Source: a virus. From it: a DNA stretch of 35,845 bases. The stretch is from positions 1 through 35,845 of the IMG/VR virus record IMGVR_UViG_3300032289_000379; one strand, given 5' to 3'. A model generated the notes under the pieces. It was not told where the DNA came from, did not search any database, and saw nothing but the letters and a program-made list of their open reading frames with translations. Below are positions 124 to 34,737 of this stretch, piece by piece (the stretch's first letter is position 1; every line of letters starts with the position of its first letter). The position numbers and the translations under genes were made by a program.

Positions 124-228
124 GCTGCTGATATGCTGACAGAAATAGAAACAAAGTTAGATGAAAGCGTTTACGAATTGCTAAATATTTACAGAAAAAC
201 AAAACCTGTAAAAAGTAGAGTTAAATGA
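1..228 (+). CDS. Small acidic helical protein, 3' part of gene spanning contig join
   Basis: This is the C-terminal 75 codons of an 81-residue protein whose first six codons lie at 35705-35722. The product is predicted mostly alpha-helical and acidic in the middle (AAADMLTEIETKLDES), with a basic tail ending KSRVK. No family was recognised. Its TGA overlaps the ATG of the next gene (ATGA at 225-228), so it sits inside the small-gene operon read from the 34.8-kb promoter. Two cysteines (LNCKLNNCQ) lie near the start, but no zinc-binding set is seen. Confidence 0.8.
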   Translation, partial: KSYWSQVNDIEQLNCKLNNCQSIIVLCAERTLGEESGALWAAADMLTEIETKLDESVYELLNIYRKTKPVKSRVK

Positions 229-434
229 TTAGATGGTCAGGGACTGTACTGTGTTTGATAGGTATAGCCCTGACTAGTCTCAATATATACCCTTTAAACC
301 TCTTATTTGGGCTTGTAGGCAGTTTTCTGTGGACAGTCCAAGGCTACCTATACAGGGACAATGCTTTGCTCTTGGTGGAGCTTGTAGCAGTTATTATTTA
401 TCTAGCAGGAATAGTTAGTCTATTTATATATTGA
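225..434 (+). CDS. Small three-helix membrane protein (DUF6552-like?)
   Basis: The 69-residue protein is almost entirely hydrophobic, with three likely transmembrane segments at about residues 5-20, 25-43 and 48-68. The motif LNIYPLN precedes the second helix, and a short charged turn (YRDN) separates the second and third. The pattern recalls the small phage membrane family DUF6552, but this is from memory of the pattern and not a search. It starts at an ATGA overlap with the preceding gene and is the last gene of the rightward operon, facing the leftward lysis cluster. A role in membrane modification or superinfection exclusion is possible but unproven. Confidence 0.75.
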   Translation: MIRWSGTVLCLIGIALTSLNIYPLNLLFGLVGSFLWTVQGYLYRDNALLLVELVAVIIYLAGIVSLFIY

Positions 435-2900: not shown

Positions 2901-3608
2901 TCAGCCTACATTGTTAATCATTGATGCTGTGATGCGTGATGCACTTTCTACATAGTAAACAAGCACATCAACAGCGTTAGCAGTCGTTGTTAAAGTAGGT
3001 GCAGTTGCACCAGCGAATTTCCAATTAGAACCATAAGCCAAGGTGCGTGAACCTGTAGCATCTTGAGTGATAACAATTACGCCTGATTGACCAGCCACAA
3101 TGTTTGTAGGGTTAGCCAAAGTAGCGTTTGTGGCCAATGTCAAGCTAAAGTTGTTTGAATCAGCTAAGTTAGTATTAACAGTTGCACCGCTTGTAAGAGC
3201 AGTTACTTCACCACGCTGACCAGCATTAAATGTCTGTACATTGTTAATACCAGCGTAATCTGTGCCAGCCGTAGCTGCTGAAATAGAGCCAGCACCAGCA
3301 CCTTTAAGAATACCAACAGCAGTAATTTCTGATTGTTTGCCAGCAACACCAGCAGCAATAGCTGTGTCCATCTGACCTTTAGAAACACCGTCAGTTGTTA
3401 TTGTTCCATCAGCCAAACCAGTAATTTTGTTAGTACCCATTTTAAGGTTGCCAGTCATAGTCGTTTGACCATCGGCTGCTACTGAATCAGTTAAGGCGTT
3501 AGCCAAATCTGTCATAGTTGTATTTGCCCATGTAGAAGCAATACTTGTGCCTGTGACTACTGGATTACCAGCTGGTAGGGTATATGTACCTGAACCGTTG
3601 CGTGACAT
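2901..3608 (-). CDS. Short tail fibre / tail appendage protein, paralogue of 19198-19629
   Basis: This 235-residue protein is rich in Thr, Ala and Gly. The N-terminal half (RNGSGTYTLPAGNPVVTGT and the TMTGNLKMGTNKITGLADGT repeat-like stretch) is typical of phage tail fibres. The last 100 residues share many identities with the C-terminus of the short fibre at 19198-19629 (LANPTN, VAGQSGV, RTLAYGSN, TAPTLTTTANA). It sits at the junction of the ejection-protein and lysis genes, far from the main fibre cluster. A GGGAGAG ribosome-binding site precedes the ATG. Confidence 0.8.
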   Translation of the reverse strand: MSRNGSGTYTLPAGNPVVTGTSIASTWANTTMTDLANALTDSVAADGQTTMTGNLKMGTNKITGLADGTITTDGVSKGQMDTAIAAGVAGKQSEITAVGILKGAGAGSISAATAGTDYAGINNVQTFNAGQRGEVTALTSGATVNTNLADSNNFSLTLATNATLANPTNIVAGQSGVIVITQDATGSRTLAYGSNWKFAGATAPTLTTTANAVDVLVYYVESASRITASMINNVG

Positions 3609-30907: not shown

Positions 30908-31095
30908 CGCCATTCTCCCTTTTTTCCTTTGTTACCTTTTGTCCATTGGTCTGCAACATCTCTAAGTAATTCTGTTTTTCTGCCACCAAATCCATAAGTT
31001 GAAATATATTTCCTGTACCAATCAAGGCCTTTTTCTGCTCTAAATGCAAGGTGTTGGCGTACTTCGCATTGATGTCTGTATTCTTCATCGGTCAT
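30904..31095 (-). CDS. Conserved phage protein (DUF7696-like?)
   Basis: The 63-residue protein runs MTDEEYRHQCEVRQHLAF, then KGLDWYRKY and DVADQWTKGNKGKKGEWR. The HQCEVR opening and DQW-x-KGN-x-G-x-WR ending are a recurring pair in phage replication operons. The ATG at 31095 forms an ATGA overlap with the stop of the YdaU-like gene, so it is preferred to a reading beginning at 31128. Function is unknown. Confidence 0.72.
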   Translation of the reverse strand: MTDEEYRHQCEVRQHLAFRAEKGLDWYRKYISTYGFGGRKTELLRDVADQWTKGNKGKKGEWR

Positions 31096-31856
31096 GCCAT
31101 CGCTTTCTTGGCCATTACTAGCAAGCACTTATCTTTGAGTTCTTTGTAGGTAAGACCGATACTATGTATGCCAAGTTCGGAAGCTTTTGCAACAATACCA
31201 GCATCAGTAAACATCCAAGCTTTGTCACTGTTTGAGTTTGTAGGATGTTGGTCTTTAATCCAATCAGCCTTAAATCCAACCCACCCTCTGGCGCAACAAA
31301 GTTCCATTGCTTCTTGTAGTGAGATTCCAGCCTTTTCAGCTTCTTTGGTTAAGCCTTTAAGAGCAGTATCAGTCCACTTGGCTTTTTTAGTCTTGCGAAC
31401 CTCTAAGTAATCTTTAAAAACAGACTCAGAAACACCGTCAGGTGTATTTATTGGTTTATGGTTATTGGTTAATGGTTTATGGTTAGCATTGCCTTTGGAT
31501 TGCGTTTGCAATGCGTTCGCATCAACACCCTTATCTCTATTGGCCCAGCGAGCTTTTGCAGAAGCCCTAGCCTTTTCTGATTTGCCATGATATTCAGCAA
31601 TTGTTTGGTCACAACGCTTATGAATATATCCTTCTTCTGTTAGCTCAAAGAAGTCATTTAATACATTTGAAAACGATAGCATTTCTTCCGCACTGCGTAT
31701 GCTATGCGTTCGCATTAGCTTTTCCAAATCCTTGGTTAATGGACTTTCGTTTAAGTAGTAAGAATCAATTAGCTGACGATAGATGCCATGCTCTAACAAG
31801 GTTAGATGCGATGTATCCTTTCTGTAATCACCAATGTTATGCTCGTAGTAGTGCAT
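31092..31856 (-). CDS. YdaU-like replication protein (DUF1376)
   Basis: The 254-residue protein opens with the DUF1376 domain (about 1-95): HYYEHNIGDYRKDTSHLTLL, EHGIYRQLIDSYYLNESPL and a winged-helix-like remainder. It is followed by a basic linker (KSEKARASAKARWANRD) and a C-terminal helical domain. Members are phage replication-initiation or helicase-loading proteins, usually first in the replication operon, as here. An AAAGG ribosome-binding site lies five bases before the ATG, just beyond the U-tract of the structured RNA element. Confidence 0.85.
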   Translation of the reverse strand: MHYYEHNIGDYRKDTSHLTLLEHGIYRQLIDSYYLNESPLTKDLEKLMRTHSIRSAEEMLSFSNVLNDFFELTEEGYIHKRCDQTIAEYHGKSEKARASAKARWANRDKGVDANALQTQSKGNANHKPLTNNHKPINTPDGVSESVFKDYLEVRKTKKAKWTDTALKGLTKEAEKAGISLQEAMELCCARGWVGFKADWIKDQHPTNSNSDKAWMFTDAGIVAKASELGIHSIGLTYKELKDKCLLVMAKKAMA

Positions 31857-31868
31857 AAAAGCCTTTAA

Positions 31869-31970
31869 TAAAAAAAGCCCTAGGCGACACTCTCAGCGTT
31901 TTAAGCTGTTGGCGGACTGGGTTAGTACCAGCAGAGTGCCGTCTAAGGCTTACTAACAAATCACCGCCAA
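31869..31970 (-). ncRNA. Structured RNA / attenuator between repressor and replication gene
   Basis: On the minus strand AGCCUUAGACGGCACUCU (31950-31933) pairs with AGAGUGUCGCCUAGGGCU (31893-31876) in an 18-position stem with two mismatches and one G-U, followed by seven U. Inside are two 4-bp hairpins with 7-base loops: CUGG-UACUAAC-CCAG and CAGC-UUAAAAC-GCUG. Upstream, GUUAGUA (31957-31951) is the exact complement of the UACUAAC loop, and UUGGCGG (31970-31964) the exact complement of the junction CCGCCAA (31915-31909). An extended -10 lies just upstream. It could be a small RNA with pseudoknots or a terminator/antiterminator switch controlling the replication operon. Confidence 0.75.
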
Positions 31971-31981
31971 GTGATGTATAA

Positions 31982-31990
31982 ATCATATCA
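31982..31990 (-). promoter_or_regulatory. Extended -10 upstream of structured RNA
   Basis: TGATATGAT on the minus strand fits an extended -10 (TGn plus TATGAT). It begins just after the stop of the repressor gene and would start transcripts near 31975, a few bases before the first paired segment of the structured RNA. No -35 is evident at standard spacing. Confidence 0.5.
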
Positions 31991-31992
31991 AA

Positions 31993-32220
31993 TTATTCCA
32001 ACTCTGGCCAAATAAATTTGTACACTTTTGGAAACATATTTTTTCTGCTCATCAAGCCATAGCTTTTCTTCTCCAACTCAGCGCCTAAAAATACCATTTT
32101 GTCGTATGGTATGCCCTTGGTTTTCCATTGGGCCACAGCTGGTGGGCTTACTTTGCATAGCTTGGCAACAGCAGTTGTGCCACCTAATAAGTCTACGATT
32201 TGCGAGTCAGTTAATTTCAT
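31993..32220 (-). CDS. Cro/YdaS-like HTH transcriptional regulator
   Basis: The 75-residue protein is a small helix-turn-helix repressor: IVDLLGGTTAVAKLCKVSPPA and VAQWKTKGIPYDKMVFLGAEL follow the YdaS/Cro layout (helix 2-turn-helix 3 at about 14-33). A short C-terminal tail (KVYKFIWPELE) could mediate dimerisation. It is transcribed divergently from the early rightward operon, and its own promoter region carries matched operator half-sites. It is the only repressor-type gene seen, and no integrase accompanies it. Confidence 0.88.
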   Translation of the reverse strand: MKLTDSQIVDLLGGTTAVAKLCKVSPPAVAQWKTKGIPYDKMVFLGAELEKKSYGLMSRKNMFPKVYKFIWPELE

Positions 32221-34661: not shown

Positions 34662-34737
34662 TGCCTTGTAGCTCAGTTGGTAGAGCAACGGACTGTTAAT
34701 CCGTGGGTCGCTGGTTCAAGCCCAGCCGAGGCAGCCA
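34662..34737 (+). tRNA. tRNA-Asn (anticodon GUU), CCA encoded
   Basis: All cloverleaf parts are present: acceptor TGCCTTG pairs with CGAGGCA, D arm GCTC/GAGC, anticodon arm ACGGA/TCCGT around CTGTTAA (anticodon GTT at 34695-34697), T arm GCTGG/CCAGC around TTCAAGC, discriminator G and an encoded CCA. It should be functional. It sits between the exonuclease and the second early promoter and may supply Asn codons AAC/AAT. No integrase is present to suggest an attachment site. Confidence 0.96.

Follow-up and report, generated by a model that had tools for sequence, protein, structure and literature searches.

An undescribed family of double-pseudoknotted RNAs that carry their own terminator, from aquatic phages infecting at least two bacterial phyla

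We describe an RNA of about 105 nt that folds into two pseudoknots around the stem of its own intrinsic terminator. It was found in a viral record 35,845 bases long (the window, meaning the whole stretch of DNA that was analysed), and the same RNA occurs in at least about 150 viral contigs and in three isolated phages. The family and its fold are previously undescribed, with no counterpart in Rfam and none in the literature searched, which was mostly open-access journal papers; as a type of gene, a phage small RNA (sRNA) with its own terminator is already known. We hold, with somewhat more confidence than doubt, that the element is an autonomous sRNA gene made up of promoter, fold and terminator, whose product acts by its shape and whose terminator also gates the genes that come next.

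In the window the RNA has a Cro-like and a DUF1376 gene as its neighbours and lies between them; on the minus strand it reads 5'-ACAUCACUUGGCGGUGAUUUGUUAGUAAGCCUUAGACGGCACUCUGCUGGUACUAACCCAGUCCGCCAACAGCUUAAAACGCUGAGAGUGUCGCCUAGGGCUUUUUUU. Its first base is predicted from the sequence to lie near 31976 and its last bases within the U tract. The 5' end is preceded by an extended -10 promoter, after which the order on the minus strand is a hairpin (H1), a main stem (P1) that encloses two further hairpins (P2 and P3), and a run of seven U residues (U7). The two pseudoknots are termed PK1 and PK2, and the features are as follows.

31870..31977, minus strand: whole RNA, about 105 nt, from folding and a match of 106.7 bits to covariance model R1
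31960..31975, minus strand: H1, 5' hairpin AUCAC-UUGGCG-GUGAU, 5 bp; two-sided changes in 4 of 5 pairs among 96 members
31964..31970, minus strand: PK1 5' arm UUGGCGG, exact partner of 31909-31915
31909..31915, minus strand: PK1 3' arm CCGCCAA, the P2-P3 junction, complement of UUGGCGG
31951..31957, minus strand: PK2 5' arm GUUAGUA, in the linker, exact partner of 31921-31927; contains the top covarying pair of the alignment
31921..31927, minus strand: PK2 3' arm UACUAAC, the P2 hairpin loop, which covaries with the linker
31933..31950, minus strand: P1 5' arm, 18 nt, central mismatch at A31942
31876..31893, minus strand: P1 3' arm, mismatch partner C31884
31917..31931, minus strand: P2 hairpin CUGG-UACUAAC-CCAG, 4 bp, 100% paired; 4 of 4 pairs covary
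31894..31908, minus strand: P3 hairpin CAGC-UUAAAAC-GCUG, 4 bp; GNRA-type cap in many relatives
31870..31876, minus strand: U7 tract, end of the intrinsic terminator, from the sequence
31982..31990, minus strand: extended -10 promoter TG-A-TATGAT, directly 5' of the RNA
32011-32006, minus strand: -35-like TTGGCC, 18 nt upstream of the extended -10
31993..32220, minus strand: Cro-like regulator gene, upstream neighbour; P22_Cro Pfam match, phrog_409/phrog_35
31092..31856, minus strand: primosomal or O-like replication gene (DUF1376), downstream neighbour; ATG 13 nt past U7

The minus strand folds at -42.1 kcal/mol, compared with -28.5 ± 3.4 kcal/mol in 200 dinucleotide shuffles (z = -3.96), none of which folds as well. 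Much of this outline had been drawn in an earlier note on the same DNA. Its pair of inner hairpins, each of 4 bp with a loop of 7 nt (31931-31917 and 31908-31894), the minus-strand tract of seven U residues (31876-31870) and the extended -10 that precedes the RNA (TGATATGAT at 31990-31982) are all confirmed. The 18-position stem also stands (31950-31933 with 31893-31876), although the two mismatches ascribed to it are in fact one true mismatch, A31942.C31884 at the ninth pair from the base, plus G.U pairs. The two 7-base complementarities, involving UACUAAC and CCGCCAA, are exact in the window and show compensatory changes in relatives. Absent from that account was the 5' hairpin at 31975-31960, whose loop, UUGGCG, takes part in pseudoknot 1. 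The view of the element as a structured RNA with pseudoknots is borne out by covariation for the fold and for both pseudoknots, and by sequence signals for the promoter and the terminator; the competition that it envisaged within the RNA is not (see below), so that the interpretation as a whole is partly supported. The window also holds a tRNA-Asn(GTT) gene at 34662-34737 on the plus strand.

The evidence for the fold comes from its relatives. In an alignment of 30 sequences 94.8% of the cells are paired, with a score of 0.690 as against 0.189 for shuffled alignments, and structures slid along the alignment pair at only 34-42%. Among 96 non-redundant members, 96.5% of the pairs form (score 0.644, shuffled 0.181; slid, 33-44%), and two-sided changes are seen in 38 of the 43 pairs, amounting to 912 such cells; this alignment was fitted to the nested helices and hence favours them, and the pseudoknots are absent from the model. 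The pseudoknots taken alone are 96.8% paired [score 0.396 against 0.134]. When columns were ranked by APC-corrected mutual information, a PK2 pair took the first place, more PK2 pairs and one PK1 pair fell among the top 27, and the ranking yielded no other helix and no covarying alternative or antiterminator pairing. PK2 is retained with at least five contiguous pairs in 93 of the 96 members, compared with an average of 29.3 and a maximum of 40 when partners were swapped, and the P2 loops come in 47 distinct sequences. Because the first search pattern had constrained PK1, this helix was tested separately in a scan that required a third junction base other than G and left the 5' loop free: 18 contigs were found, and all 13 distinct ones carry the matching loop, UUGGAGG/CCUCCAA (in one case CCUCCGA). 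Hence P1 and both 7-bp complementarities are retained with covariation in the compensatory-change test that the earlier note had proposed, and, since relatives keep both complementarities through such changes, these exceed what chance would give. The helices contain 146 G.U pairs as opposed to 13 A.C mismatches, and the RNA strand is therefore the minus strand. Few unpaired bases are conserved outside PK1. In three members (L143:1508-1622 on the minus strand, L106 and L113; loci are given L numbers) the PK2 complementarity is weak or unclear, at 3-4 contiguous pairs; these are possible natural exceptions that bear on the role of PK2.

No named family had been recognised in the element, and a search of Rfam 15 agrees: the RNA is unmatched at the gathering score, and at E ≤ 10 over 4227 families the best hit is SNORD98 (E 1.3) on the opposite strand. 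Three other members (L024, L027, L031) are likewise without an Rfam match at the element; L024 has an Rfam tRNA match elsewhere (159-231, minus strand). A BLAST search of the window copy against phages gave no match. The RNA is present at the same place beside IMG/VR relatives of the cro and primosomal proteins, two further carrier contigs were found through the PK2 arms, and a pattern made of the PK1 arms and the U run matches at least 120 IMG/VR contigs. Among the pattern matches listed and read, all except two (L068 and L117, chance matches from the large scan) are clearly the same element. Two matches to a strict pattern among genome contigs, in Devosia (L153) and Poribacteria (L154), were also rejected as chance, having neither a U-tract terminator nor a match to the model. 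Retrieval by pattern introduces a bias in PK1 and in the U run; members found by protein, PK2 or BLAST are free of it.

A covariance model built on 30 members recovers every member tested, at rough E-values of 1e-7 to 1e-22. Among these is a divergent subgroup made up of L002, L005 and L023, with UGGAAGG/CCUUCCA, UGACAGG/CCUGUCA or UGUCAGG/CCUGACA as PK1. The model also finds the RNA in Pseudomonas phage AH02 (88.4 bits) and Leptolyngbya phage Lbo-JY16 (84.7 bits); Leptolyngbya phage Lbo240-yong2 has a copy identical in sequence to that of Lbo-JY16, and two spring-water assemblies carry the RNA as well. By these three isolates, the hosts of carriers are a gammaproteobacterium, Pseudomonas koreensis for AH02, and a cyanobacterium, Leptolyngbya boryana for the other two phages. 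In all 50 of 50 carriers searched with the model, as in the window, the RNA occurs exactly once. The RNA was not found in 399 Pseudomonadota genomes or in a plasmid collection, and thus is not common on prophages or plasmids. A tyrosine integrase occurs in 2 of 90 carrier contigs and a serine recombinase in none of 50, many of these contigs being fragments; from the rarity of integrases and the 399 genomes without a copy, the carriers are probably for the most part virulent phages. In two deposited records a hypothetical protein is annotated opposite the RNA (L156:817-1059 in MW202462 and L157:3905-4147 in MW202544, both minus strand), which is probably a spurious gene call.

The P1 arms are nearly constant in length, at 18 nt in 95 of 96 members for the 5' arm and 94 of 96 for the other, and 82 of the 96 have a mismatch at pair 9 or 10, with almost no other mismatches in P1. 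The earlier note had the upstream pairings compete with this stem or knot through it. Competition is not supported: P1 and the two pseudoknots use separate bases, the helices can coexist in a coarse 3D model if P1 bends or a few end pairs open, and no alternative pairing covaries. We examined their compatibility in a bead model that treats helices as rigid (P atoms, ideal A-form geometry, chain connectivity and excluded volume), which speaks of metric feasibility only. A straight 18-bp P1 together with a full 7-bp PK2 fails in this model, with a residual of 76.6 in repeated runs and five bonds overlong by more than 3 Å; the model closes if P1 is bent, if 2-4 basal pairs are open, or if PK2 is reduced to 5 bp. 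The mismatch in the middle of P1 could, on this modelling, serve as a hinge. That a hinge is geometrically required at pairs 9-10 was rejected, since a bend at several places also relieves the strain. Among members that lack the central mismatch, 7 of 14 have a P2 loop of at least 8 nt, as against 5 of 82 among those that carry it [Fisher P = 1.6e-4, uncorrected for kinship], and the mismatch and a long P2 loop tend to replace each other as relief; three members without the central mismatch (L035, L075, L121) have an unpaired position higher up P1. Since a bend in P1 makes the helices compatible, and since the mid-stem mismatch is carried by 82 of the 96 members, P1 and both pseudoknots are probably present together, and model and alignment are suggestive of one compact shape instead of an either/or switch. 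A mutually exclusive switch was rejected, as no alternative pairing covaries and the helices are compatible given a bend.

Signals for transcription flank the fold. In 102 non-redundant upstream regions, -10-like elements concentrate 8-17 nt before CTTGG, and a high-scoring extended -10 is found in 31% of the regions, compared with 5% of shuffles; some members have a poor promoter match, which counts against an sRNA gene. From the fixed position of these elements, the transcript would start at or just before H1. At the other end, the 18-position stem is followed immediately by U7, as in an intrinsic terminator, and the U tract is also present in members found without the U-tract pattern (L019, L020, L023, L024, L002-L005, L027, L031 and AH02). 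The element thus has, by sequence signals, the promoter and terminator of its own that mark an autonomous sRNA gene. In virtually every sufficiently long member the next start codon lies close behind U7, mostly at 9-16 nt, and an ORF of at least 60 aa starts within 40 nt of U7 in 139 of 147 members; shorter ORFs occupy this position in L106, L125 and L164. Such proximity is equally expected of a cis-acting leader and counts against the sRNA reading. At many loci (e.g. L035, L046, L037, L047) the base of P1 and the U tract can pair with the downstream ribosome-binding region, as in GCCC-U8-GGGC or GCUUUUU-AAAAAGC, possibly a second layer of control or a by-product of composition.

The genes behind the RNA fall into 22 unrelated clusters, mostly of replication initiation, primosomal and DnaD-like genes, and also ParB-like, HNH and GIY-YIG genes. 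About one third of the upstream genes are Cro-like; the rest are MazG, SSB, resolvase, NinB and others, and no protein gene common to the RNA neighbourhoods was found among the neighbour clusters of carriers. A site between repressor and replication genes, as first noticed in the window, is common but does not define the family: in AH02 the RNA follows ninB and precedes a small gene, and in the Leptolyngbya phages it stands first in an operon that has an Erf-type recombination gene and, in Lbo-JY16, a phrog_1376 gene as well. The unrelated downstream clusters and the differing locations speak more for a self-contained gene than for a leader tied to one particular gene. At nine loci (L040, L072, L082, L092, L119, L128, L138, L142, L169) HNH or GIY-YIG endonuclease-like genes stand directly behind the RNA, as if the position just past the terminator were an endonuclease insertion site.

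Promoter, terminator, sealed 5' end, single copy, conserved shape and independence of neighbours together favour a self-contained sRNA, and the other structured RNAs in the same slot, being Rfam sRNA genes, also count for it. Computation establishes the fold with both its knots, the strand, the signals for promoter and terminator, the single copy and the extent of the family; the transcript, its action in trans, its binding partner and its gating role we infer, along the following lines. The extended -10 promoter would start an RNA of about 105 nt at the 5' hairpin, and P1 would be its intrinsic terminator. During synthesis P2 would fold back and its loop grip the linker at the foot of P1, and H1 would dock its loop into the junction strand, giving a compact double pseudoknot. 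The released RNA would work through its shape and not as an antisense RNA, which accords with the scarcity of conserved unpaired bases outside PK1, an argument against an antisense seed. The likeliest target would be conserved host machinery, with RNA polymerase, the ribosome or an RNase as candidates; hosts as different as a gammaproteobacterium and a cyanobacterium imply that any host partner should be conserved. The terminator may also limit upstream transcription entering the next, usually replication, genes, as the distance from the U tract to the following start codon is about 13 nt. A more elaborate version, which we regard as a tentative and rather doubtful proposal, puts the terminator hairpin at the core of a machine with two pseudoknots: the knot would tune its own termination mechanically, the mid-stem hinge working against the tether of the P2 loop, and the released RNA would then use its shape to act on some component that cyanobacterial and proteobacterial hosts have conserved.

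The main rival is a cis-acting attenuator in which PK2 resists the closure of P1. The nascent pseudoknots would delay closure of the bottom of P1, and polymerase would enter the replication operon unless the knot were loosened, the balance being set by a protein, a ligand or the level of Mg2+. The terminator in every member with a start codon about 13 nt later is what an attenuator would need, in the coarse model P1 as a straight helix of 18 bp cannot close together with a complete PK2 of 7 bp, and the order of pairing in the nascent RNA would favour PK2 first. Yet PK2 and P1 share no bases, no alternative pairing covaries, a mid-stem mismatch or a longer P2 loop reconciles all helices, the genes downstream are unrelated, and attenuation of the cro operon would need no separate promoter. 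We consider this reading unlikely, though it deserves to be taken seriously.

Much the same shape-conserved compactness in an early operon could belong to an RNA-only antiterminator like HK022 put, or EAR, with the fold binding its own polymerase and passing later terminators. The site of the RNA presumably corresponds to the position of lambda nutR/tR1, and a spread across hosts is expected of an element acting on polymerase. The element, however, terminates itself, and it is present once per genome, unlike nut and put, so that we think such a role quite improbable. Less probable still is a gate made of promoter, leader and terminator, like lambda PR'-6S RNA-tR', which a Q- or AlpA-like protein would load onto at the promoter and open. 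The promoter followed by about 100 nt and a terminator, and in the window a long same-strand operon downstream of the RNA, have the right form, but no protein gene shared by carriers was found beside the RNA, and such leaders are not known to require a covarying double pseudoknot. An antisense or immunity RNA of the C4 or P4 CI kind, suggested by a slot shared with int-alpA-like RNAs and by loops that vary among members, can hardly be maintained when both loops are paired within the molecule, C4 gives no match and integrases and recombinases are so rare among carriers; on this rarity a role in lysogeny or immunity was rejected.

The slot between cro and the replication genes is occupied by other RNAs in some contigs. 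An int-alpA-like RNA follows a 99%-identical cro in L021 [3233-3299, plus strand; 27.9 bits, threshold 35.8], another such RNA lies in the slot in L022, and int-alpA scores above the Rfam threshold in L009 (2347-2413, plus strand). L008, L012 and L013 have sequences similar to the L021 type in the corresponding position, short of E 0.1. In L025 the Betaproteobacteria-1 RNA (RF02932; 3270-3389, plus strand, 96.6 bits) comes right after a 64%-identical cro-like gene, a hint that this RNA belongs to phage early regions. Rfam classes both int-alpA and Betaproteobacteria-1 as sRNA genes. Different structured RNAs thus stand beside related cro genes, which makes the slot a site of substitution among several unrelated structured RNAs.

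Structured RNA families that covary to this degree seldom remain unannotated, and this one is widespread: a single pattern finds it in at least 120 IMG/VR contigs, and its carriers infect bacteria from at least two phyla. Over 900 compensatory cells preserve its shape, while few free bases are conserved and the neighbouring genes are unrelated, all of which speaks either for a host partner that is itself conserved or for a mechanical function during termination. Because three isolated phages carry the RNA, direct testing is possible.

Among known systems, the C4 antisense RNA of P4 and P1 (RF01695) is likewise a regulatory RNA from a phage early region. C4 displays antisense loops toward the leader of its own operon, whereas the two loops of the window RNA are paired internally, and the window has no match to the C4 model, which gives 74.9 bits for P4 as a positive control. 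The int-alpA RNA (RF02996) is a phage or mobile-element sRNA of the same slot, but it differs in sequence and fold and has no match in the window at its cut-off of 35.8 bits. Betaproteobacteria-1, similarly without a match in the window (cut-off 49.4 bits), directly follows a cro-like gene in L025 as the window RNA does in its own genome; unlike the window RNA, it consists in the Rfam model of three successive hairpins with no closing P1 stem, and the 3' end of the L025 copy lacks a U7 tract. At lambda PR'-6S RNA-tR', a promoter is followed by a short terminated RNA with an operon behind, the same layout as here; the downstream genes differ, and the lambda element is not known to have a covarying double pseudoknot. 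HK022 put and EAR are structured RNAs within an operon that act by shape. The nut and put sites have a copy in each of both early operons, as opposed to exactly one copy of the present RNA per genome, and, in contrast to put and EAR, its fold is built around its own terminator.
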